Assembly (NCBI GenBank): GCA_000421065.1
Contig: ATWD01000001.1
Location: forward strand, 434,001-498,000
Reading direction: 5' to 3'
DNA: 64,000 nt
Source of the DNA: Acidobacteriaceae bacterium TAA 166
GTDB lineage: Bacteria > Acidobacteriota > Terriglobia > Terriglobales > Acidobacteriaceae
Shown: positions 7,152 to 51,134 of the stretch, piece after piece
Numbering within the stretch: the first letter of the stretch is position 1
How the letters are laid out: every line of letters starts with the position of its first letter
Notes under the pieces: model-generated
What the model was told of the DNA's origin: nothing
Database searches by the model: none
Seen by the model: the letters and a program-made list of their open reading frames with translations, nothing else
Program-made: the position numbers and the translations under genes

Positions 7152-7877
7152 CTAAGCCGTGATTCCCATCTGTTGCATATAGGCGCGCATTTCTTGCTCG
7201 TCGCCTTTGAAGAGAAGAACATACGTCTTTCGCCCATCTGACCAACGGCTATTGCTTCCCTCATTTCCATGGAACGAACGCAGAGCACTGTCATGCGTGA
7301 GTACGCCGTCCACGATGAGGAGGCTTGCTCGTTGCTCGTTCTTCATTCCTAGCAGGACGGCTTGATGGTGGCCCACTTCCAGAGCACTTGCGGACCGAAA
7401 CGTCACTTTTCTCAGCTCGGGTGGAAGTCCTGTAAAGCCGTGAAGCGTTATGGCACTCCATGCCATCAGTTGGCTCTGATCGGTACTATTGATGCCCGCG
7501 GCTGGAGGGTGGCTCAGCAGAGTCGTGATCTGCCTTCCGAGTTGTGCTTCGCGTGCGTACGGCATAACCCCGAGCCACAGGGTAAGCAGCAGCATTGCGG
7601 CGATTGGAAACAGCGCCCACCTCTTCCACGGAGGTTGGGGTCTGGGGGCCTGCAATCGCTCATGCGCGAGCCCCGAGAGGATGCGCCTTTCTAGCGTGGG
7701 TGCCTCCGGTACTTCACGGAATGTCTGCCGGGCAGCTTGGTCTAACTCGCTGAGTTGTGCGAAACGTCGCGCACATGCGGGACACGCGGCTAGGTGTTCG
7801 AAAAGCTGTTTGAAGTCGCTGACTTCGCACCCGTGGCGCCAAGCGTACATCTCCAATTCATAGAGTTCACAATTCAT
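7152..7877 (-). CDS. Anti-sigma factor with zinc-binding N-terminus
   Basis: A protein of 241 residues. The N-terminal cytosolic part has the zinc-binding anti-sigma motif H-x3-C-x2-C (HLAACPACARRF, residues about 28-39). One membrane segment follows (about residues 88-106, FPIAAMLLLTLWLGVM), then a periplasmic domain of about 130 residues ending in YVLLFKGDEQEMRAYMQQM. It should hold the ECF sigma factor inactive until a signal in the envelope releases it. The start codon overlaps the stop of the sigma gene (ATGA at 7877-7874), the usual sigma/anti-sigma coupling. The signal is unknown. Confidence 0.9.
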   Translation of the reverse strand: MNCELYELEMYAWRHGCEVSDFKQLFEHLAACPACARRFAQLSELDQAARQTFREVPEAPTLERRILSGLAHERLQAPRPQPPWKRWALFPIAAMLLLTLWLGVMPYAREAQLGRQITTLLSHPPAAGINSTDQSQLMAWSAITLHGFTGLPPELRKVTFRSASALEVGHHQAVLLGMKNEQRASLLIVDGVLTHDSALRSFHGNEGSNSRWSDGRKTYVLLFKGDEQEMRAYMQQMGITA

Positions 7878-8410
7878 AGGTTCTTCGCTTTCTTCAGCAG
7901 GACGAGTTTCGCTGGCGTCTGCAACAAGTCGTGAAGTTGCTTTCGTGCCCGTGCCAACCGGGACATCACCGTCCCAATCGGCACGTCCAGTGCTGCCGAA
8001 ATCTCCTTGTAGGAGAGTTCGTCGAAGTAGTAGAGGACCAGAGGAATGCGATGGCGCTCCTCGAGCTTATCCAGGGATTGATGAAGGGCAAGCGCGTCCG
8101 TACTGATGTTCTTTTCGCTCGCCGGTTCGACGAGCATCTCTTCAAGGGCTAGTTCGCTCCTGGAGGCGTCGCGCCGCCGCGTCTGGCTGTAGCAGTTCCG
8201 CAGGATGCCGACGAGCCAGCCCTTCACTGCTTCGGGATCGCGGAGCGTCGAGCGCGACCGATAGGCTTGGAAAAACGCTTCTTGTGTGAGTTCTTCCGCG
8301 TCCGCACGCGAGTGCGTCCACCAGTATGCGATCCCGAACAGCAGCCGCTGATGCTGCCTGACCCAGTCATCGAATTGGCGATCGCTGATCTGCACGTTTC
8401 TCTTCCGCAC
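7874..8410 (-). CDS. ECF-type RNA polymerase sigma factor
   Basis: A protein of 178 residues with sigma region 2 (about residues 20-85, with DAEELTQEAFFQAYR recognising the -10) and region 4 (about 115-165, with the helix-turn-helix LSYKEISAALDVPIGTVMSR that reads the -35). It lacks regions 1 and 3, as ECF sigmas do. It is coupled to the anti-sigma gene downstream. The promoter copies at 8431-8464 and 8494-8527 suggest that it transcribes itself and the divergent DUF305/YVTN genes. The ECF subgroup was not assigned. Confidence 0.94.
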   Translation of the reverse strand: MRKRNVQISDRQFDDWVRQHQRLLFGIAYWWTHSRADAEELTQEAFFQAYRSRSTLRDPEAVKGWLVGILRNCYSQTRRRDASRSELALEEMLVEPASEKNISTDALALHQSLDKLEERHRIPLVLYYFDELSYKEISAALDVPIGTVMSRLARARKQLHDLLQTPAKLVLLKKAKNL

Positions 8411-8573: not shown

Positions 8574-8900
8574 ATGAAGTTGAAGTGGATTTTGGCTACA
8601 TCGGCGCTCGCATGTACAGCCGGTGCACAAATGGCACCCATGGCCGACCAGTTCATGAAGGCGATGGAGATCAGCATGTCCAAGATGGACAAGGGCATGG
8701 CGGAAGCGCCGATGAACGGCAATACCGACCATGATTTTGCGACCATGATGCTCGCTCACCATCAGGGCGCAATCGACATGGCGAAAGCCGAATTGAGCTA
8801 CGGAAAAGATCCCGTGATGCGTCGCCTTGCTCAGGAAATTCTTGTGGATCAGCAGTCCGAGATGGACGCAATGAATCTATGGCTAAACAAGCGTCCCTAA
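8574..8900 (+). CDS. Exported DUF305 protein
   Basis: A protein of 108 residues with a signal peptide (to about residue 19) and the DUF305 core: Met- and His-rich helices with the signature MMLAHHQGAIDMAKAEL (residues about 59-75) and QEILVDQQSEMDAMNLWL. DUF305 proteins are ferritin-like four-helix bundles often found with copper or other metal-handling genes; the exact role is unsettled. AAGGAG stands 6 nt before the ATG. The YVTN gene follows 14 nt downstream, so the two form one unit, probably served by the ECF promoter at 8494-8527. Confidence 0.88.
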   Translation: MKLKWILATSALACTAGAQMAPMADQFMKAMEISMSKMDKGMAEAPMNGNTDHDFATMMLAHHQGAIDMAKAELSYGKDPVMRRLAQEILVDQQSEMDAMNLWLNKRP

Positions 8901-8914
8901 TAACGAAAGGAACT

Positions 8915-10300
8915 ATGCAAAACCGACTTATTCCTGCCCTTCTTCTCGCGTGTGCAGTCCCGGCCTTCGCTCAACAGAGTGATCGCGTCTACACTGCGGA
9001 TCAGACTTCGAACACCGTATCGGTCATCGATCCAGCCACGAACAAGCTCCTGGGATCGATTCATTTAGGCGACGATGTTCCAGCTGCGCTCAGCCCGCTC
9101 TATCGGGGGCAACTGCTCGTACATGGCTTGGGATTTTCTCCCGATCACAAGACCCTCGACGTGATCTCGATCGGTTCGAACGCCGTGACGCTTATCGACA
9201 CCCAGAGCAATACGGTGAAGGGCACGGTTTACGTGGGACGGTCACCTCATGAGGGATTCTTCCGGCCCGATGGGAAGGAACTTTGGGTCACCGTTCGAGG
9301 GGAGAACTATCTGAGTGTCATCGACCCGGTCTCAATGAAGGAAGTCCGTCGCATCGAGACTGCGAATGGCCCAGGAATGGTGTTGTTCCGTCCGGACGGC
9401 AAGCTCGCCTTTGTACCATCCAGCTTTACCCCGGAGATGGACGTCATTGATACAGCTACCTACCAAGTCATCGCGCGTGTTCCACAGGTGAGTCCATTCT
9501 CGCCGAACCTTGCTGTCGATCAGGATGAGGTATGGTTCACTCTCAAGGACACGGGAAAGACACAGGTTGTAAGCGCGACGGCTCCGTTCAAGACGCTCGC
9601 AACGCTAGAGACCGGTCCAATCAGCAATCACGTCACTCTCATCACGAATCGGAATGGGAAGTTCGCCTATGTCACGGTCGGCGGCTTGAACGAGGTGAAG
9701 GTCTATCACGGCCAGGCAGGAGTTGAGCCCACGCTCACAGGCACGATCAAAGTAGGTGATCTGCCGCACGGCGTTTGGGGCTCAGACGACGGCAGCAAGG
9801 TATACGTTGGTTTGGAAAATGGCGATTCTGTCCAAGCCATCGATACTCTGACCAACCGGGTTGTCGCTACCATCCCCATCGGACAGTTGCCGCAGGCGTT
9901 AGTCTACGTGTCGCATGCCGTGTCGTCTGAGGCAGGCACTGCAAATCTGAAGCCGCTCGGTCCTGCGACGGACGCCCTCCACCTGGAGCTTGTGCCGCCT
10001 TTGGAGAAGGCCTCCTCCGCGCACGCGAGCGTTTCCGTCAACTCGCTCGGAGCTATCGACAATCTGCAGATTGCAGCGACAGGTTTAACCCCAGGGAAGA
10101 AGTACAAACTGGTGCTTGTGGGCGACGCGGCATCTCAGGATCTTGTGACGCTGATGGGAGGCGTCGGAGGCGTTGCCATTGCCCAGACGCTTGGCCCGCT
10201 GAAGCGAGCCATTGCCCCTGGCCAGTTATCTGCCGCCTTGACACTCCAGCTGAGAACCTCGGATGATGCAAATGAGATCATCCTTCAGCAGAAACGGTAG
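8915..10300 (+). CDS. Exported YVTN-type beta-propeller protein
   Basis: A protein of 461 residues from the ATG at 8915, which has AAAGGA just upstream; an earlier in-frame ATG at 8879 lies inside the previous gene and lacks a ribosome site. A signal peptide ends near AFAQQ. Repeated blades carry V-x-V-I-D-x-x-x-N/M-x-V motifs (NTVSVIDPATNKLLGSI, NYLSVIDPVSMKEVRRIE, VQAIDTLTNRVVATIPIG). A separate domain of about 110 residues, with no propeller motif, closes the protein. It probably acts in the periplasm or at the surface; the ligand is unknown. The DUF305 neighbour hints at metal or oxidative stress. Confidence 0.85.
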   Translation: MQNRLIPALLLACAVPAFAQQSDRVYTADQTSNTVSVIDPATNKLLGSIHLGDDVPAALSPLYRGQLLVHGLGFSPDHKTLDVISIGSNAVTLIDTQSNTVKGTVYVGRSPHEGFFRPDGKELWVTVRGENYLSVIDPVSMKEVRRIETANGPGMVLFRPDGKLAFVPSSFTPEMDVIDTATYQVIARVPQVSPFSPNLAVDQDEVWFTLKDTGKTQVVSATAPFKTLATLETGPISNHVTLITNRNGKFAYVTVGGLNEVKVYHGQAGVEPTLTGTIKVGDLPHGVWGSDDGSKVYVGLENGDSVQAIDTLTNRVVATIPIGQLPQALVYVSHAVSSEAGTANLKPLGPATDALHLELVPPLEKASSAHASVSVNSLGAIDNLQIAATGLTPGKKYKLVLVGDAASQDLVTLMGGVGGVAIAQTLGPLKRAIAPGQLSAALTLQLRTSDDANEIILQQKR

Positions 10301-10684: not shown

Positions 10685-10697
10685 GTAAAGATTTGTC
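10685..10697 (+). promoter_or_regulatory. Cpx-like box upstream of the YXWGXW gene
   Basis: GTAAAGATTTGTC. It differs by one base from the box at 13687-13699 (read on the minus strand) and matches 12 bases of the one at 15324-15335. An inverted core CTTTAC lies at 10740-10745. The layout GTAAA-N5-GT fits the published E. coli CpxR site GTAAA-N5-GTAAA in its first half and start of the second. Binding is inferred. Confidence 0.6.
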
Positions 10698-10855
10698 GTT
10701 TGAAGAACCCTTCCGAAACGGATATAGCGTCCAACATTTCTTTACAGAAGCGGGAGCATCGAGGCAGAGGGCATCCGTGTCTATCTGATTGGAAACGGTC
10801 ACCATGAAGAGTGCTCTTGTGGTGATGCACTCCAACCCAATTCGGAGCCCTTGAT

Positions 10856-11146
10856 ATGAAGAAATTGTTTATCACGTTAGCTGGAGCCGCTGCTCTCATG
10901 TCATCTACAGCGTGGTCTCAGGTTGTTGTGCGTGTGGGACCACCCCGAGTGATCGTCGAAAGACCAATCCCGCGTCCAGGGCCACGATATGTCTGGTTGC
11001 CTGGTTACTATCGCTGGGGAGGCGCCCGGTACGTGTGGGTTCCAGGAAGATATGAGATTCCGCCTCGCCCTGGCGTGGTCTGGATCGCTCCCCGCTGGGT
11101 TCAACGGAATGGTTCCTGGGTGTTTATCGCTGGGTATTGGCGTTAG
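10856..11146 (+). CDS. Exported YXWGXW-repeat protein
   Basis: A protein of 96 residues. A signal peptide ends near AWSQ. The mature part is rich in Pro, Arg, Tyr and Trp with several W-x-P-G-Y/R repeats (YVWLPGYYRWGGARYVWVPGR, then WIAPRWVQRNGSWVFIAGYW). Such proteins are common in acidobacteria and proteobacteria and their role is unknown. The stop codon lies 1 nt from the stop of the convergent histidine kinase gene, with no terminator between them. A GTAAAG box upstream suggests control by that kinase's partner. Confidence 0.8.
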   Translation: MKKLFITLAGAAALMSSTAWSQVVVRVGPPRVIVERPIPRPGPRYVWLPGYYRWGGARYVWVPGRYEIPPRPGVVWIAPRWVQRNGSWVFIAGYWR

Positions 11147-11147
11147 G

Positions 11148-12512
11148 TCAGTTGCTTCCAGCACTCTTGACAGCCGCTGGAAGGCGGAGTTGTAGCTGAA
11201 AACCACAACCGGGCAGGTTCTGGGCTGCGATCGTTCCACCGTACAACGTCGCAATTCTCTTACTGATAGAGAGGCCCAGACCTGCGCCACCTTGCTTGTG
11301 AGAGTTTTGCGAGGCGATTCGAAAGAACGGGTCGAAGATCTGCTCCAGAGCCTCTTCAGGGACACCACTGCCTTCATCTGTCGTGGTGATGGCGATCATC
11401 GAGCCTCGGAAGTTAGAGACATCTGCAATATTCACTTCCACAACTCCGGTTCCGGGCGTATGTTTTAGCGCGTTGCGCACAATATTCTCGATACAACTGT
11501 GCAGTAGACCCGTGTCCCCTGAAATATAACGGTCGAACACTCCTGTTTGAACGACCGTCTTTGCCTCAGCCGCACCTTCAAACGATGCATCCTTAACAAT
11601 TTGTTGTATCAATCGGCCGATGTGAACTGGTTCGCGTCGTGAGTGTTTATCCGCGGCGTCAATCCGAGCAAGCGTCAGCAAATCGGAGATCATCGTCTCC
11701 AAGGTCTTGATATCGGCTTGCATACGCGCTGCTGCGGCGAGATCACCACGCTGGACCAGTTCTGCCGAGACAGTTAGCCGTGCCAGAGGCGAGCGCAGTT
11801 CGTGGGATATATCACGGAGCAATAGCTTTTGCTGTTCAAGCAAAAGCTGTATCCGTTCAGCCATGCGATCAAAGTCATGTGCCAGCGAAGCAAGTTCGTC
11901 GGTACGACCCGCGAGGGCGGGTGAGGCGCGGGCCGTGAGATCCCCGCCTGCGATATCCATCGCGGTTCTCTGCAAGCTTCTGATGGGCTTCGTAATGCTT
12001 CGAGCAAGGAGACCGCAGAGAGCCGCCGAAATGATCAAGACAAAGATCGTTCGAAACGGACCTGTTTCCGAGTCGACATAGTTGCCAAACATCTTCACCT
12101 GCGGCACCTGGGCAATGAAGAAGTAGATGTGATTGCCATGCTGCTGCCTGACTACGCCAAGCCACGGAGAGTCGAACGAGTATTCGGATCTCTTCTCGGC
12201 TCGAGCTCTGGCTAGTAAATCGACAGCACCAGGTGGGATTGAACGCGTATCGTTATCAGAATTATCCACGAGAAGAACGGCAGATGTAAGCGCATCACTT
12301 TGAATGTCTAAGAGATATTCATTGAGTCTTTTCGAGCCTCCCTCTTCGTAGGCGTCGATTGCCGTTTTCGCGTAGAGATCCAGCGTGTGCATGAGCCAAC
12401 GGTGGGCGAGAGGGCGTGCATTGGTCGCAGCAGTAATGACAGCTAAACTCAACAGCACGAGTGCGGAAACCAGCCAAAATGTGAGGAACACGCGAAGAAA
12501 GAGGCTACGCAT
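11148..12512 (-). CDS. Sensor histidine kinase, CpxA-like
   Basis: A protein of 454 residues from the ATG at 12512, which overlaps the regulator stop by 8 nt. Order: TM1 (residues 10-28), a periplasmic sensor of about 120 residues, TM2 (155-171), HAMP (172-225), dimerisation domain with the H-box RDISHELRSPLARL (phospho-acceptor His237), N-box ENIVRNALKH and glycine boxes DEGSGVPEEA and GGAGLGLSIS. The H-box region and the flanking HAMP-to-helix stretch (FDRMAERIQLLLEQQKLLL) resemble E. coli CpxA. It would phosphorylate the regulator encoded just upstream. The sensor domain is not similar enough by eye to name its signal. Confidence 0.92.
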   Translation of the reverse strand: MRSLFLRVFLTFWLVSALVLLSLAVITAATNARPLAHRWLMHTLDLYAKTAIDAYEEGGSKRLNEYLLDIQSDALTSAVLLVDNSDNDTRSIPPGAVDLLARARAEKRSEYSFDSPWLGVVRQQHGNHIYFFIAQVPQVKMFGNYVDSETGPFRTIFVLIISAALCGLLARSITKPIRSLQRTAMDIAGGDLTARASPALAGRTDELASLAHDFDRMAERIQLLLEQQKLLLRDISHELRSPLARLTVSAELVQRGDLAAAARMQADIKTLETMISDLLTLARIDAADKHSRREPVHIGRLIQQIVKDASFEGAAEAKTVVQTGVFDRYISGDTGLLHSCIENIVRNALKHTPGTGVVEVNIADVSNFRGSMIAITTTDEGSGVPEEALEQIFDPFFRIASQNSHKQGGAGLGLSISKRIATLYGGTIAAQNLPGCGFQLQLRLPAAVKSAGSN

Positions 12513-13200
12513 GTGCCAATCCCGTATAGCAGTATCCCAGGTGGCGAATACTGCGAATTCGATCTGTATCTCCTGCCTGGGCACCCAGCTTTCGGCGCAG
12601 ACTACTAATATGGTTGTCGATTGCCCGGTCTGCGACACCAACGGGACGGCCTAAGACCTGTTCGGTAAGCTCATCGCGAGTGACACACTCGCCACTACGG
12701 CGAACTAAGGCCAATAAGATATCGAACTCTGCCGCAGTCAGAACAACATCTTCTCCATCGCGTAGTACCCGTCTCTTCGATACTTCAATCTTCAAGTCTC
12801 CCGCCAAAAGGGTGTCTCCCTTGCCACCAACACGGCGACGAAGGACAGCACGAATGCGCGCAACGAGTTCTCCAGGGACGAATGGTTTGGGGATGTAGTC
12901 ATCGGCGCCATTCTCTAAGCCTGCAATACGATCGCCGGCATCTCCTCGTGCAGTGAGCATGATGACAGGAACATCAGAACGATCGCGGATCTTCTTCAGA
13001 AGAATGCGCCCGTCCCCATCGGGAAGCATGACATCGAGAACAACGAGATCGTACCGCTTCGATTTAAGCTCGGATTTTCCTGTAGCAATGTTGTGGGCGG
13101 AGGTAATGGCAATGTCATCCATTGCCAGAAGGCGCGTGAGCGATTCACAAAGCTCGGTATCGTCATCTATGAGAAGGATCGAACTGCTCATTGTCCCCAT
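12505..13200 (-). CDS. OmpR-family response regulator, CpxR-like
   Basis: A protein of 231 residues: receiver domain with acidic pocket IDDD (11-14), phospho-acceptor Asp56 in VVLDVMLP, the conserved Lys of PKPF, then an OmpR-type winged helix. The C-terminal EQVLGRPVGVADRAIDNHIS closely follows the E. coli CpxR pattern (VLG-x6-DRAID-x-HIS-x-LRRKL). Together with the kinase and the LTXXQ protein it forms a Cpx-like circuit. The gene starts 24 nt after the VOC gene stop, so the VOC gene, regulator and kinase may share a transcript starting in 13605-13755. Confidence 0.92.
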   Translation of the reverse strand: MGTMSSSILLIDDDTELCESLTRLLAMDDIAITSAHNIATGKSELKSKRYDLVVLDVMLPDGDGRILLKKIRDRSDVPVIMLTARGDAGDRIAGLENGADDYIPKPFVPGELVARIRAVLRRRVGGKGDTLLAGDLKIEVSKRRVLRDGEDVVLTAAEFDILLALVRRSGECVTRDELTEQVLGRPVGVADRAIDNHISSLRRKLGAQAGDTDRIRSIRHLGYCYTGLAHA

Positions 13201-13223
13201 CCGAATTCATCCTTTCCCTCGAA

Positions 13224-13604
13224 TCAGAGCTCTTGCTCTTTCGAGAGTGCCTTCGCAACAAAAACGAGTTTGTTGCAAAAGGGATCAATGACTGTCAATA
13301 TCCTGCCCCAATCCGCGTCTTCAATGCCAGGTCTCATATAAGGATTTTGTCGATCCGTCAGCTCTTGATGTAGCGAATCAAGGTCGTCGACCTCGATGAA
13401 CACCTTCGTTCCCGGCGTCCCATCACCATAATGTTCCGATAAAACCAGAGTTGTGTCATCACGTTTTACTTCCATGATGGAAGGGCCACCATCCTGGGGG
13501 CGATGTTCCCAACTCAACTGAAATGCAAGCCAATCGAGGTAGAACGATTTTGCAAGGTGATTGTCGAAAACGCGAAGTGCAGGACGAGCGGATTTCATAG
13601 CCAT
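13224..13604 (-). CDS. VOC-superfamily (glyoxalase/bleomycin-resistance-like) protein
   Basis: A protein of 126 residues from the ATG at 13604 (GGAG 9 nt upstream); the frame stays open further upstream but that would cross the divergent LTXXQ promoter. The sequence has the beta-alpha-beta-beta-beta VOC layout: ALRVFDNHLAKSFYLDWLAF, then FIEVDDLDSLHQEL and a C-terminal VIDPFCNKLVF. It resembles the glyoxalase-superfamily type related to bleomycin-binding proteins; the substrate is unknown. It sits first in front of the two-component genes. Confidence 0.78.
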   Translation of the reverse strand: MAMKSARPALRVFDNHLAKSFYLDWLAFQLSWEHRPQDGGPSIMEVKRDDTTLVLSEHYGDGTPGTKVFIEVDDLDSLHQELTDRQNPYMRPGIEDADWGRILTVIDPFCNKLVFVAKALSKEQEL

Positions 13605-13686
13605 AGCAAGCTCCAACTCAGTAAAGTGTGCATGATTCTTGGCACAAATCCAGTATGACGGAGGCCGTACTAGATAGATTGGCTCG

Positions 13687-13699
13687 GACAAAACTTTAC
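13687..13699 (-). promoter_or_regulatory. Cpx-like box between VOC/two-component operon and LTXXQ gene
   Basis: On the minus strand this reads GTAAAGTTTTGTC, one base different from 10685-10697. It is 57 nt upstream of the LTXXQ start and 83 nt upstream of the VOC start, so it could serve both divergent units and give autoregulation. Confidence 0.6.
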
Positions 13700-13755
13700 A
13701 CGGTCTCCTACGCTTTCGCAGCCGTCTTTGGCCTAGATTCGATAAAGGAGGAACT

Positions 13756-14202
13756 ATGAAGTCGAGAAATTTATCCGCAGCTTGTCTAGCATTTGTTGTC
13801 GCCACTAGCGCATCTTATGCAGTTGGGCAGCAGCCAACTCCACCACCGACGAATCAATCGATTCCAAGCGATTCCGTTCCAACAACTACCGGCGGTTGGC
13901 CAACTCCCGAAGAAGTTGTCACTCGCATGAGCAGCAAGTTGAACCTGACGGATGACCAGAAAGCGAAGATCACCCCCATCATCGCCGGCCGGCAAACGCA
14001 AATGAAAGCATTGATGGCCGATACTTCGGGTCGTCGGTTGCAGAAGGCAAGGAAAGCCAAGTCGATCATGTCCGATAGCGACAACAAGATTGAGGCGATA
14101 CTCACTAGCGATCAGAAGAAGGCCTACGCGCAGATGAAGGAACAAACGAAGGAGCAGCTGCAAGCCCGTAGACAACAAAATGCAGGCAGCAACGTGCAGT
14201 AG
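13756..14202 (+). CDS. Periplasmic LTXXQ protein (CpxP/Spy-like)
   Basis: A protein of 148 residues with a signal peptide (ending near AVGQ), a Pro/Thr-rich linker and a helical domain carrying two LTXXQ motifs: LTDDQ (about residues 64-68) and LTSDQ (about 115-119). CpxP and Spy of E. coli carry the same motifs; they bind unfolded periplasmic proteins, and CpxP also restrains CpxA. AAGGAGGA stands ahead of the ATG. The position next to a CpxA/CpxR-like pair and the GTAAAG box upstream support a CpxP-like role. The overall sequence is not obviously CpxP, so the functional equivalence is inferred. Confidence 0.8.
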   Translation: MKSRNLSAACLAFVVATSASYAVGQQPTPPPTNQSIPSDSVPTTTGGWPTPEEVVTRMSSKLNLTDDQKAKITPIIAGRQTQMKALMADTSGRRLQKARKAKSIMSDSDNKIEAILTSDQKKAYAQMKEQTKEQLQARRQQNAGSNVQ

Positions 14203-14208
14203 GGCTTA

Positions 14209-15255
14209 CTAATTGAGACGGGTGAGCCGCTTCACTGGAACGCCATCACTCCAGGTTCCCATATCAAGAACGCTCGGGCCCTGAAAGAGGCGGTTCCCCT
14301 CGCCTCCGAAAGCTGCATCCATGAGCCTATCGAGCAATCTCCAAGTCCCCATGTAGTCCAATGCGTCGACAACACCGATATCGGCCGTGTTTCTACTGAA
14401 CGAAGCCCTGGTTGGTTCCTTCGCAAACGTACCGTCGGAATTCAGCACTGCAGACGGTGTGTAGTGGTTCGCGACTAATGCAGGCGAACCGTGATCATCG
14501 CTGTGAAGCATCAAGAGCGCCTTGTCCGAAGCAGAAACAGAGATGGATTCGTGCAGGATTCGTTCTCCGTCGAAAGTCCCAACCGAAGTATCGTCTTGCC
14601 CAACCAGAATGAGCATCAACGTGTCGGATGGAAGCGTGCTTAGGTCGGCCAGGGGAACCGAAGCTATCCCCCCGCGTTGACTATCCCCCGGCTCCACGGA
14701 CATCAGAGCCCTCATCTTGGGTAGGCCTTCGGCAATTGCTCTCGCCGCGATTCCAGCTGCGACCATTCCGCCAGCCGAATGGCCTGCGACGACGACACGG
14801 TCAAGATCGGGACGAATGCTGTAGTTACCAGATTCCAGGACTCGCAAGCCAGCTTTCACCCCAGCGAGAGCATTCGGCAAAGCCTGACGCGTCGGTGTCA
14901 GAGGGTTGTCCTGATAGTTGGGCCATAGGACGATATTTCCTCGCATGACAAGATGATTGATCCACGCTTGGTATCCGCGTGGAGGGATGGCCGCCCATCC
15001 GTGACAGAAGATGATGACAGGTGCTTTGCTTGGACTTGGATCGGCCGGAAGGAATAACCATCCCCCTTGGCCGCCGTCTGCAATCTTTACGGTGACGATG
15101 GAATGAGAAGTGGTTTCGCTACTTCCAGGGCCATGCTGCGGCTGAGATGGCTGCTTGGGCTTTGCGGCATTGTTTGTACCCTCCTGGCCCAACGCTCCCA
15201 TGGTTAGCCGCAAGAAGATTATCGCTGCGCAGGCAAACCGTTGTTTCTTTTTCAT
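14209..15255 (-). CDS. Exported alpha/beta hydrolase (dienelactone hydrolase/PAF-acetylhydrolase-like)
   Basis: A protein of 348 residues with a signal peptide (to about residue 23) and an alpha/beta-hydrolase core: oxyanion region IIFCHGWAAI (81-90), nucleophile elbow AGHSAGG with Ser160, a likely acid in LILVGQDDTSVG and a likely base in HSDDHG near residue 255. It probably hydrolyses an ester in the periplasm; the substrate is unknown. Its stop is 6 nt from the stop of the convergent LTXXQ gene. Confidence 0.85.
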   Translation of the reverse strand: MKKKQRFACAAIIFLRLTMGALGQEGTNNAAKPKQPSQPQHGPGSSETTSHSIVTVKIADGGQGGWLFLPADPSPSKAPVIIFCHGWAAIPPRGYQAWINHLVMRGNIVLWPNYQDNPLTPTRQALPNALAGVKAGLRVLESGNYSIRPDLDRVVVAGHSAGGMVAAGIAARAIAEGLPKMRALMSVEPGDSQRGGIASVPLADLSTLPSDTLMLILVGQDDTSVGTFDGERILHESISVSASDKALLMLHSDDHGSPALVANHYTPSAVLNSDGTFAKEPTRASFSRNTADIGVVDALDYMGTWRLLDRLMDAAFGGEGNRLFQGPSVLDMGTWSDGVPVKRLTRLN

Positions 15256-15323
15256 CGCTTCCTACCTCATTTCGCTTCGTTTTCGAACCACTTCGATGGT
15301 TGCCGATTGCGAAGAGTTTGTGG

Positions 15324-15361
15324 GTAAAGATTTGTAGGCTCGCGTCCGCAGCAAGCTTTAC
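15324..15361 (+). promoter_or_regulatory. Pair of inverted GTAAAG cores upstream of the repeat-protein gene
   Basis: GTAAAGATTTGT at 15324-15335 matches 12 bases of the box at 10685; CTTTAC at 15356-15361 is the inverted core. The region lies 95-130 nt upstream of the repeat-protein start and 70-105 nt upstream of the divergent hydrolase. Confidence 0.55.
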
Positions 15362-15455
15362 ATATCCATACATTTGAAACAGCGACATGCGACTGGAAGT
15401 TGCGTTCCAATGAATGCACGGCTTGGTTCCGTGACTTTCTAAATCGAGGTGAAAC

Positions 15456-16019
15456 ATGATCTCTCAAGCCAGACTTAGCCTTGCCATCGCAGGTATCCTT
15501 TTTTGCACTAGCATGGCCCCCGCACAAATTACCCGTGGAAGAACTCGTATCGGACCCCGCGGAGGCACGCGGTCCGTGACCCAAACGCGAGGTAACGGAC
15601 AGGTCTCCAGCACGCGTCAAGCGACCGGCCTCAATGGAGCCAGTTACACAAATCAGAGGACGATGTCTGACGGGCACTACACGGACACACGAACGATGAC
15701 CGGACCAAACGGCGCTACTCGGACTTCTCAGAAATCTGCCCAGAACGGAGAGTTGACGAGTACAAAAACAGCGACGGGGCCGGATGGCGCAACGTACACC
15801 AATCAGCGGACTGCCGGGAATGGCCAGTACACAGACACCCGCACCGCAACCGGGCCAAACGGTGCGACGTATACATCGCAGCGCTCGGCCGAGCCTGGGC
15901 AGCTCAATAGCACAAAGACAGCCGTAGGTCCCAATGGTGGTGTTTACACCGATCAGCGAAGTGTTTCCAACGGCCAGGTGAACAATGTTCGAACTGTCAC
16001 ACCTCCACCGCAGCCCTAA
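15456..16019 (+). CDS. Exported protein built of five 25-residue repeats
   Basis: A protein of 187 residues. A signal peptide ends near APAQ. A Gly/Arg-rich segment (25-56) is followed by five direct repeats of 25 residues (57-181) and a Pro-rich tail. Each unit begins TGPNGATYT and ends in a T-x-T-[RK]-T strand-turn pattern, so a beta-solenoid or beta-roll is likely. Even and odd units alternate (YTNQRT with YTDTRT; SQ[KR]SA with STKTA), giving a 50-residue higher-order period. Low hydrophobicity and a Thr/Gly/Asn composition suggest a secreted or surface protein. I do not recognise the family. Confidence 0.75.
   Translation: MISQARLSLAIAGILFCTSMAPAQITRGRTRIGPRGGTRSVTQTRGNGQVSSTRQATGLNGASYTNQRTMSDGHYTDTRTMTGPNGATRTSQKSAQNGELTSTKTATGPDGATYTNQRTAGNGQYTDTRTATGPNGATYTSQRSAEPGQLNSTKTAVGPNGGVYTDQRSVSNGQVNNVRTVTPPPQP
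15624..15998 (+). repeat. Five 75-bp coding tandem repeats
   Basis: Encodes residues 57-81, 82-106, 107-131, 132-156 and 157-181 of the exported repeat protein. Units 2-4 keep most of the consensus; the last has diverged. The DNA repeats differ at many third positions, so expansion is not very recent. Confidence 0.85.
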
Positions 16020-44726: not shown

Positions 44727-45854
44727 TCAAACTCGCCGCGACGATACAAGAACAAGGCGGGGTTTGCCATTCTCAGGTAGATTTTGAACCTTGTCTGGCT
44801 TTAGCGTAGAGAACTTCTTTCGTTGTTCTAGCCTCTGCAAGGCGTCTTCAATATCGGTGTGTGAAACGATGGCGTAGCGTTCGAAAACGCTTCGATTCTT
44901 CCAGCCGCCGATTTTCATAATCACTCCCTCAGCGATCCCAGCTCGGCGAAAGTTTCGAGCCGCAGTCCGACGCAGATCGTGAAAGAGCAATTTTGGAACT
45001 CCGGCAGCAATGCGGGCTTTATCCCATGCGTCACGGAAATCCCCAATTCTCTTTCCATTCGGTCTGGTAAAGAGGTAGCCCTCGGGAGATTTCCCCTCGG
45101 TACATAGTTCGAACAGATCATGGATTGTTTGGGTCATGGTGACCTCGCGCCCCTCTTTGTTCTTTGTCGTTCCTGGATTCAAACGAATGACGCGGTTCTC
45201 CATATCAACCTGATTGACCTTGAGCTTCAACAGTTCTCCAATCCGCCATCCATAAGTACACCCAGCCTCCACAAGAGCCTGGAACCATATCTCCGGGCAT
45301 GACTCTAAGAGTCGCTGGTACTGAGCATCCTCGAGAAAGCCCTGGCGAACGTTGTTTTCCAACAGTTTCGGGAAGTGTGGGATGAAGAAGATTTTCGGAG
45401 GAGTGGCCTCATGACCAAGATTGAACATTCTCTTGAGCGCGGCCAACTCGCGGTTGATCGTGCCATTGGCGGCACCTGCTTCTTGACGCTTGTCGACGTA
45501 TTTATTAAGGAGGACGCTTGTTACCTGCGAGGCCTTCATCTTTCCAAAGAAAGGCTCCAGGTGGAGCCTCCACCGCGCTTCTGCGTCATCGAGTGAGGCC
45601 CTGCCGTTGATCTTGTAGTCGCGAATGAAGTCTTCCGCCAGTTCCGAAATTCGAGTTCTCTTAGGTGTAAGCCCAGTAACTGAACCAGTTGTTAGTTCCG
45701 CGATCCGAAGCTTTAACTTCTCCAGAGCATCCTTTCGATTAGAAGTCTCTGCGGATTCCCGTCGCTTGACGCCATTCTGGTAATACTGCAGCCACCAAAT
45801 CGAGCTTCCCTTGGGCAGAAAGATTCGCCCCGTTCCACGTTGGCGTCGGCTCAT
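44727..45854 (-). CDS. Tyrosine-family site-specific integrase
   Basis: A protein of 375 residues with an N-terminal arm-binding/SAM-like domain (about 65-150) and a catalytic domain. The active-site residues are Arg204 (YGWRIGEL), His292-x-x-Arg295 (HDLRRT) and the nucleophile Tyr327 (SVFERYA). It would insert and excise a mobile element at an attachment site, likely the tRNA-Leu 3' end 0.7 kb upstream (46557-46615). Its start overlaps the excisionase stop (ATGA). Confidence 0.93.
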   Translation of the reverse strand: MSRRQRGTGRIFLPKGSSIWWLQYYQNGVKRRESAETSNRKDALEKLKLRIAELTTGSVTGLTPKRTRISELAEDFIRDYKINGRASLDDAEARWRLHLEPFFGKMKASQVTSVLLNKYVDKRQEAGAANGTINRELAALKRMFNLGHEATPPKIFFIPHFPKLLENNVRQGFLEDAQYQRLLESCPEIWFQALVEAGCTYGWRIGELLKLKVNQVDMENRVIRLNPGTTKNKEGREVTMTQTIHDLFELCTEGKSPEGYLFTRPNGKRIGDFRDAWDKARIAAGVPKLLFHDLRRTAARNFRRAGIAEGVIMKIGGWKNRSVFERYAIVSHTDIEDALQRLEQRKKFSTLKPDKVQNLPENGKPRLVLVSSRRV

Positions 45855-46129
45855 TTGCTCCTCCTCGGTTGAGGTGAGGCCTCGCGCTTAGCCGTTAACA
45901 CGGGATTCGGTTCCCCATGGTGGGCATCACTGATGCTGTGCTTGTTGCCTTCGATGTAGGCATCTAGGTCACGGACGTCGACAAGAAACGGCCCGCCGCG
46001 CTGGTCCTGAACGAACGGGATGATCTCGGTCTGGATGAGGCGTCTCAGCTTCCATTCACTCATCGACAGATAGGCAGCAGCCTGCTTGGTGCGCAAGAGC
46101 CGTCTGGTCACCATGGGAATAACGGTCAT
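45851..46129 (-). CDS. Excisionase-like helix-turn-helix protein
   Basis: A protein of 92 residues from the ATG at 46129 (GAGAGGA about 7 nt upstream; the frame runs open far upstream through the tRNA fragment, which is not coding). A MerR/excisionase-type winged HTH: RLLRTKQAAAYLSMSEWKLRR, then the wing QRGGPFLVDVRDLDAYIE. It should bind near the att site and direct excision by the integrase gene that it overlaps. The 427 nt between it and the tRNA fragment show no other gene. Confidence 0.8.
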   Translation of the reverse strand: MTVIPMVTRRLLRTKQAAAYLSMSEWKLRRLIQTEIIPFVQDQRGGPFLVDVRDLDAYIEGNKHSISDAHHGEPNPVLTAKREASPQPRRSK

Positions 46130-46556
46130 AGTAGTGTCCTCTCGCATGCAGGCAGTTCCGCATCCGCATGTCATCCTCGACCAGCGAGCCAGTCGAGTGG
46201 GGATCATGGGGCTGTTCCTGATTTCGGTCAAATTTCTGGCATAGGGCTCTTGCACTCCCGTCAAGGGAGCACAAAGGACTGCTCCGCGCGAGTCGAAGGA
46301 GGCCCATGCTTCACCTGTCCCAGGGCAGTCTTTGAGTTGACTACTCAGGGAGAGTTGAGCCGTTGAGTTTGCGAGATCAGCCTCTCTTGCTCCCAGTTGG
46401 AGTGGGAACGAAGAGGATGGTTTTTCTTTGGAAGGAGACGGGGCGAACGATGTGCGGTTCCGCCGGTCGTTCGGTGTGATTCGAGGGGTTGGACAAAGAA
46501 TGGACAAAGTCGGCTCCAAGCTGGGAACCGGCGATGATGTAAGTTGTTGTATTTTA

Positions 46557-46615
46557 TGGTGCCGGGAGGGGGGGACGAACCCCCACGACCGCAAGGGTCG
46601 GCGGATTTTGAGTCC
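46557..46615 (-). other. 3' fragment of tRNA-Leu(CAA), probable attachment site
   Basis: Minus strand, from the anticodon loop CTCAAAA through a perfect variable-arm hairpin (CGACC-x5-GGTCG), a perfect T-arm (GGGGG-TTCGTCC-CCCCC), acceptor 3' strand TCCCGGC, discriminator A and encoded CCA. The 5' half (acceptor 5' strand, D-arm) is absent, and homology stops in the anticodon stem near 46615. This is the typical attachment-site copy left at the far end of an element that integrated into a tRNA gene; from the orientation the element extends to the right. Confidence 0.82.
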
Positions 46616-46686
46616 TTTCGGTAAAGCCGTAAACTTTTGTAAAATATGCATTTATTTCCATAAAACTGTGTACTGTGTAAGAAAAT

Positions 46687-51047: not shown

Positions 51048-51134
51048 TGGTGGCCGAGGTCGGACTCGAACCGACACGAAGTTGCCTTCGGCAGATTTTG
51101 AGTCTGCTGTGGCTGCCAATTTCACCACTCGGCC
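51048..51134 (-). tRNA. tRNA-Leu (anticodon CAA), complete
   Basis: 87 nt including encoded CCA. Acceptor GGCCGAG (51134-51128) pairs perfectly with CTCGGCC (51058-51052); U8, D-arm GTG...CAC, anticodon stem GCAGA/TCTGC with loop CTCAAAA, a long variable arm (class II) and T-arm GTCGG-TTCGAGT-CCGAC. The anticodon is the same as that of the fragment at 46557-46615 but the gene is different. Confidence 0.93.

Follow-up and report, generated by a model that had tools for sequence, protein, structure and literature searches.

A Cpx-like gene cluster with three boxed promoters in an Acidobacteriaceae genome

Cpx is a model envelope-stress response. Acidobacteriota are an abundant soil phylum, and little is known of their regulation. 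The locus described here raises the question of whether a response of this type is encoded in the phylum, and which genes it would control. The locus lies at about 10.6-16.0 kb of a 64,000-nucleotide stretch of the genome of Acidobacteriaceae bacterium TAA 166 (contig ATWD01000001.1, positions 434,001 to 498,000), referred to as the window. It encodes a CpxR-like response regulator, a CpxA-like sensor kinase, and small exported proteins, and a CpxR-type box is present in three of its promoters. The cluster is quite probably a Cpx-type envelope-stress circuit.

The regulator gene (12505..13200, minus strand) encodes an OmpR-family protein and overlaps the start of the kinase gene (11148..12512, minus strand; HAMP, HisKA, and HATPase domains) by 8 bp. 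The operon is headed by a VOC/glyoxalase-like gene (13224..13604, minus strand, start set by eye), which is located between the middle box and cpxR and whose longer frame, 13224-13805, matches PF19581 with 111.5 bits. On the other side of this box is the gene for a short, 148-residue LTXXQ (CpxP/Spy-like) protein (13756..14202, plus strand). A small protein of 96 residues made up of WXXGXW repeats is encoded at 10856..11146 (plus strand; PF12779, 32.6 bits, cut-off 18), and a further gene at 15456..16019 (plus strand) encodes a protein built from GPNG repeats of 25 residues that has no Pfam match. Export of these three small proteins is predicted by eye from their N-termini. An earlier reading of the same DNA from its letters alone, the original prediction, had described three small exported proteins around the pair, and these were found.

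The first box, GTAAAGATTTGT(C), is located at 10685..10696 (plus strand), 160 bp ahead of the WXXGXW gene. The middle box, GTAAAGTTTTGT(C), is on the minus strand at 13688..13699 (13687 with the extra C), between the divergent LTXXQ gene (57 bp away) and the VOC-cpxR-cpxA operon, whose VOC gene starts 84 bp away on the opposite strand. The third box, GTAAAGATTTGT, is found at 15324..15335 (plus strand), 121 bp from the repeat gene and 69 bp from a divergent hydrolase gene. Sequence reading and pattern search place all three where the original prediction had put them. It had also named two inverted cores. Both are present: CTTTAC at 10740-10745, within the stretch GTAAAGAAATGTTGG (10731..10745, minus strand), and CTTTAC at 15356-15361, within GTATGGATATGTAAAG (15356..15371, minus strand). 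A third inverted core, GTAAAG at 13621..13626 (plus strand) in the middle promoter, is added here. Relative to the E. coli site GTAAA-N5-GTAAA, the boxes retain the spacing and the first half-site; of the second, only GT(C/A) remains, a point that the original prediction did not emphasize.

The exact pattern GTAAAGWTTTGT is scarce, with four copies in the 6,136,933-bp genome and none of the reversed-pattern control. Three of the four are in promoters of the cluster and together span 4,651 bp (scan probability approximately 7e-6), and the fourth is inside an unrelated 831-residue open reading frame (ORF). A count in the window alone with up to two mismatches is unremarkable (7 found, 4.84 expected; 7 or more in 23 of 100 shuffles) and would not have revealed this rarity. 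A sigma-70 consensus scan returned two sites against 3.4 expected, none of them at a box.

The nearest relative found is 'Acidobacteriales bacterium 59-55' (G150), whose regulator is 97% identical. It shares a 6-kb block at 92% identity, and the genes outside this block differ. The whole cluster is present twice, at C7:403.6-408.4 kb (L284) and 1548-1552.8 kb (L280). Across the three cluster copies, that is, the window and the two in G150, all three boxes are invariant at 12 of 12 positions; outside the boxes, 180/221, 119/148, and 151/197 columns of the respective promoters are invariant (77-81%). The inverted cores also recur in both G150 copies. The doubling in G150 belongs to a larger duplicated segment, which also takes in an operon for membrane proteins that has a related box close by.

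In more distant relatives, the gene order varies. The G130 regulator is 81% identical, with a box 95 bp before it and an LTXXQ gene starting on the other side. The divergent LTXXQ gene with a shared, boxed intergenic region is thus common to the window, G130, and both G150 copies. The VOC gene, which precedes cpxR in the window and G150, is absent between box and cpxR in G130, where the repeat gene comes after the LTXXQ gene and the counterpart of GTATGGATATGTAAAG reads GTCTGGATATGTAAGG. In G128 (regulator 58-59% identical), it is the repeat gene that is transcribed away from the regulator gene, and ATAACGATTTGTAAGGATTTGTCGG lies in the interval; in both G130 and G128 the repeat gene stands beside a cpxR-like gene. 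In G032 (51%), the gene order is LTXXQ-regulator-kinase-repeat-like, the repeat-like protein being spotted by eye. The 15-mer GTAAGGAACTGTCAG precedes both the LTXXQ-cpxR genes and the repeat-like gene of G032; these are exactly the two copies in that genome, with one further place at one mismatch. The next relative, G140 (54-55%), showed no such box. Across this subclade, the sequences compared suggest a drift of the box from GTAAAG to GTAAGG while its position is kept.

Within the family, a regulator match was found in 89 of 150 genomes and the 12-mer in 82. Each search scored part of its first-pass candidates, 19 per genome in the family and mostly 14 in the phylum, so that absences are soft. 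Eighty regulator loci were retrieved, which are most of the places listed, taken by E-value (one G032 paralogue skipped, L250 added). The exact 12-mer is present on the same strand no more than 400 bp upstream at 30 of these, and at 21 of the 30 it is followed by an inverted box of at least 8/10 (shuffle frequency at most 0.01 in 18). The fuller consensus GTAAA-N5-GTMAA was scored at 79 family loci, a set without the window, E. coli, and L250. A box of at least 9/10 is found within 250 bp upstream at 57 of them (39 perfect, 18 one off). Markov shuffles gave one in 65 of 3,950 cases, and in the same loci 4 of 812 upstream regions of other ORFs carried one. The frequent family context is GTAAAGAGTCGGTCAA...GTAAAGTTTTGTAAA, in which GTAAA/GTCAA half-sites recur every ~10-11 bp. 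By the count from the listing, the 15-mer GTAAAGWNTTGTAAA has 94 copies in 52 of 150 family genomes, against 3 of the reversed pattern. At L189 and L207, GTCAA-N5-GTCAA boxes replace GTAAA upstream of a CpxR-clade regulator, which may be a shift of recognition.

The association extends past the family. Of 199 genomes searched across the phylum, 51 match a typical family regulator at E <= 1e-55. Among the 30 loci returned of the places listed, counted without a shuffle control of their own, 21 reach 9/10 (14 perfect), including 18 of the 26 outside the family of the window. At 14 of the 30, a divergently oriented frame encodes two LTXXQ-like motifs. Among 30 relatives elsewhere, mostly Proteobacteria (L031-L060), 11 reach 9/10 upstream, and the box upstream of E. 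coli cpxR is perfect in the same scoring. Boxes missing from orthologous promoters had been set beforehand as one refuting outcome; the boxes are conserved in both G150 copies, G130 has the one between the LTXXQ gene and cpxR, and the E. coli-type box recurs in the family and in other families of the phylum.

A divergent ORF was called, with a simple ORF caller that misses some, at 59 of the 79 family loci and, with the protein of the window and E. coli CpxP, 61 proteins were scanned. PF07813 is matched by 36 of them, counting the sub-threshold protein of the window and presumably E. coli CpxP. At L181, L183, L190, L240, and L245, the cpxP position is taken by another kind of local target, a long divergent protein of ~385-454 residues. 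A further 18 neighbors of the 15-mer that are not evident cpxR or cpxP genes were drawn, without a control set, from the 30 loci returned for the 94 GTAAAGWNTTGTAAA sites. They comprise five HlyD-type adaptors, three VWA proteins, two DUF4397 proteins, one DUF5666 protein, one DNA-methyltransferase domain, one regulator C-terminal domain, and five without a match. This composition leans toward an envelope regulon in the family.

In a 110-sequence tree, built without L053-L060, the regulator and E. coli CpxR fall in one clade of 100 rows (SH-aLRT 94). E. coli OmpR, PhoB, BaeR, CreB, ArcA, and RstA are outside this clade. Among 14 E. coli OmpR-family relatives, CpxR is the best BLAST match (154 bits), and the recognition-helix stretch is identical to that of CpxR at 13 of 17 positions, the highest of the 14 (BaeR 11). 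In the reverse direction, the best match of E. coli CpxR in the genome is the window gene. The claim of a CpxR-like regulator is supported by clade membership and by the E. coli comparison, with reservations, among them the ranking of the NCBIfam models discussed below.

The kinase has CpxA as its best NCBIfam model, with 266 bits over residues 1-445, sensor part included; the best non-Cpx model scores 154 bits. CpxA is thus the best full-length model, as a CpxA-like kinase would have it, but the 266 and 226 bits obtained do not reach the equivalog cut-offs of 800 and 486. The protein proposed as CpxP-like occupies the divergent, boxed position and contains two LTXXQ motifs, LTDDQ and LTSDQ, but its family score and architecture fall short, as described below. 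The NCBIfam Spy model gives 36.8 bits (cut-off 174). Its AlphaFold model has four helices, with a mean pLDDT of 78.6 and 87 of 148 residues at 90 or above. The top structural rows include STV (Z 9.3), an unrelated chain (8.1), Spy (7.8, 27% identity), CnrX (7.6), and ZraP (5.9), at Z values that helical proteins reach by chance; the Foldseek E for Spy is 0.9. STV, Spy, CnrX, and ZraP are taken here to be LTXXQ-type relatives.

Genes, boxes, conservation, and clade were computed, and binding, the sign of regulation, the signal, and the protein roles are carried over from the E. coli and Pseudomonas systems, as far as the available portions of the sources describe them (PMC9600279, PMC5063474, PMC12802237). 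The CpxA-like membrane kinase would phosphorylate the CpxR-like regulator. The phosphorylated dimer would then bind direct-repeat half-sites 10 bp apart, GTAAA-N5-GT(A/C), each box being accompanied by an inverted core within ~40-80 bp. Three promoters would be targeted, namely that shared by the VOC-cpxR-cpxA operon and the divergent LTXXQ gene, that of the WXXGXW gene, and that of the repeat gene. The expected outcome is autoregulation and the output of small exported envelope proteins. Among these, the LTXXQ protein may act like CpxP, as a buffer for misfolded protein in the periplasm and a damper on the kinase.

Several observations weigh against the Cpx assignment. The window boxes match 8 of the 10 positions of GTAAA-N5-GTMAA, under the 9/10 used in the family count. 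The inverted stretches GTAAAGAAATGTTGG and GTATGGATATGTAAAG and the weak remainder of the middle one match 7, 8, and 6 of 10, levels common among single shuffles, and the G130 regulator promoter is without a clear inverted box. Full-length GTAAA-N5-GTMAA sites occur at chance level in the genome of the window (8 against 7 controls), where the family 15-mer GTAAAGWNTTGTAAA has no copy. A good box is lacking at 22 of the 79 family loci. The system is patchy, with no regulator match in 61 of the 150 family genomes or, in the phylum search, in 8 of the 11 genomes of the genus to which the window belongs. The LTXXQ protein scores 22.6 bits with PF07813, just under the cut-off of 24.3, and is called LTXXQ-like because it misses this gathering score; it also lacks the central segment of its family relatives. 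The tree was quick, with a non-monophyletic outgroup root and many long branches, and its support for the CpxR grouping is only moderate for that reason. In BLAST the regulator scores little higher with CpxR than with OmpR (154 and 146 bits), and the NCBIfam MtrA, OmpR, RpaB, PhoB, and PmrA models outscore the CpxR model. The regulator is named CpxR-like, not an equivalog, since these models score higher and its 162.4 bits miss the CpxR equivalog cut-off of 341. The CpxR clade includes a second regulator of this genome, the paralogue C1:638678, whose own upstream region has the weakly similar sequence GTAGAGAAATGTCGA. This paralogue, not the window gene, is returned by the typical family CpxR, as the only match in the genome at E <= 1e-55 (14 of 75 candidates scored), and it could use the boxes jointly with the window gene or in its place. 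Because of this search and the weak NCBIfam rank, the window gene is regarded as a divergent member of the clade; it may be an old paralogue and not a strict orthologue.

OmpR-family sites resemble one another. The boxes could serve another OmpR-family regulator of the genome, such as the paralogue with its clade membership and its upstream GTAGAGAAATGTCGA, while the local pair controls something else. This is improbable, since the box stands at the local regulator's own operon in the window, G130, and both G150 copies, the association across the family is with the promoter of the regulator itself, and E. coli CpxR favors the window gene over the paralogue (148.7 against 141.4 bits). Somewhat less remote, though still unlikely, is a metal-sensing pair with a ZraP/CnrX-like LTXXQ protein, which would have the same architecture and box with another signal and so overlaps with the Cpx reading. 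CnrX and ZraP are among the structural neighbors cited above, Metal_resist (PF13801) is matched by 34 of the 61 scanned proteins, and 9 of the 61 divergent-position proteins are RND adaptors. The kinase, however, scores 266 bits with CpxA against 144 with the CzcS/SilS/CopS type, and ZraP matched seven members, all weakly, whereas Spy matched 36 and the CpxP family 35. The unremarkable two-mismatch count in the window would suit three boxes that arose by chance or belong to a dispersed, non-regulatory repeat. This explanation is highly improbable given the genome-wide scarcity and clustering of the boxes and, by eye, the unshared flanks beyond them, and it is already contradicted by their conservation in copies and relatives.

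With one mismatch the motif is found at 32 places, compared with 10 for the reversed pattern. Beyond the three in the cluster, 27 of these places were inspected as loci (L004-L030), 18 inside called ORFs and nine intergenic, and none of the nine was judged a convincing target; these verdicts are the author's judgement and rest on a simple ORF caller that misses some ORFs. No wider regulon is detectable in the genome of the window. Copies of the one-mismatch motif are also held by a dispersed repeat, REP-like by eye, around CTCCCGTTGGTCGCTTG (L012, L014, L017, L019, and L020 near position 1501). A perfect GTAAACTTTTGTAAA at 46629 of the window was rejected as a regulatory site; it is beside integrase genes and is probably there by chance.

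A broader interpretation is possible and is put forward tentatively. Cpx may be an old system common to Acidobacteriota and Proteobacteria, of which the window would hold a divergent copy shrunk to a self-contained, duplicable island. The island would consist of the regulator, the kinase, the LTXXQ protein, and a new exported, single-layer beta-repeat protein. It would be its own only detectable regulon, and its box, specific to the clade, would be drifting from GTAAAG to GTAAGG along with the regulator.

Compared with E. coli CpxRA-CpxP, the cluster has the same overlapping regulator-kinase operon, divergent LTXXQ gene, and boxes of the GTAAA-N5-GTAAA type in the shared intergenic region. It differs in phylum, in the reduced second half-site, in the VOC gene between box and regulator, in that no wider regulon was found, and in two more exported proteins (WXXGXW and GPNG repeats) with boxes of their own. 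Typical acidobacterial CpxRA systems, e.g., L237 and L211, share the clade and the box core and, at L237 and many others, a divergent LTXXQ-type gene. They differ in GTAAAGAGTCGGTCAA...GTAAAGTTTTGTAAA boxes with fuller half-sites and in longer LTXXQ proteins, and the repeat protein was not found in them by search. In Pseudomonas aeruginosa, according to the available portions of two reports, Cpx likewise has a local LTXXQ gene and the same kind of box, HT-SELEX admits GTCAA as a half-site, a variant also seen in acidobacterial promoters, and RND adaptor genes stand beside the box as in the acidobacterial family. Gene order, the Pseudomonas-specific CpxM/CpxH, and a wide regulon set it apart (PMC5063474, PMC12802237).

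Cpx homologues were placed in alpha-, beta-, and gamma-Proteobacteria in 2025, in the part of the report available (PMC12802237). No description of an acidobacterial Cpx circuit was found in the open-licence literature searched. Among the sources, each represented by part of its text, resistome surveys count cpxR among soil resistance genes (PMC7264878, PMC8122544), and CpxA-CpxR modules are correlated with soil pH in communities (PMC12805986). BaeSR, LiaSR, and other systems, not Cpx, are named in acidobacterial genomes (PMC5462947), 'Cpx' does not occur in the available text of two papers (PMC3174227, PMC7074687), and 'CPx' in another denotes CPx ATPases (PMC9653421). Soil surveys already apply the name cpxR to acidobacterial or other genes, so that the name as such is not new in soils. 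Each part is known; a circuit of this kind in Acidobacteriota, and the reduced, self-contained form of it, seem not to have been described in the open literature searched. If the Cpx assignment is true, the conserved regulator, box, and cpxP-like neighbor would extend the described circuit beyond Proteobacteria to another phylum, supply a binding motif that can be tested in dozens of genomes, and provide a natural series of regulators that change together with their boxes.

By sequence search, the repeat protein is found in 3 of 150 family genomes, namely the genome of the window (G000), G130, and, weakly, G128 (E 8e-7). Its AlphaFold model, built from five sequences, has 13 strands (pLDDT 88) and is predicted to be a single-layer beta meander. 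Comparison of the model with the Protein Data Bank (PDB) gave no significant match (best E 0.02; TM-scores 0.26 and 0.31).

The remaining gene of the cluster encodes an exported alpha/beta hydrolase (14209..15255, minus strand; PF07224 and PF07859). It sits between the LTXXQ gene and the repeat gene, with its start facing the third box. Elsewhere in the window, the region 44727-46651 contains an integrase-like ORF and a small DNA-binding-like ORF, both recognized by sequence, and no long direct repeat was found around it. A tRNA-like stretch suspected by eye at ~46555-46640 was discarded, as ARAGORN gives only tRNA-Leu at 51048-51134. Directly left of the cluster are an ECF-like sigma factor gene (7874-8410, minus strand) and a likely anti-sigma gene (7152-7877, minus strand), again by sequence. 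Next to them are genes for a DUF305 protein and for a YncE-like beta-propeller (8574-10300).

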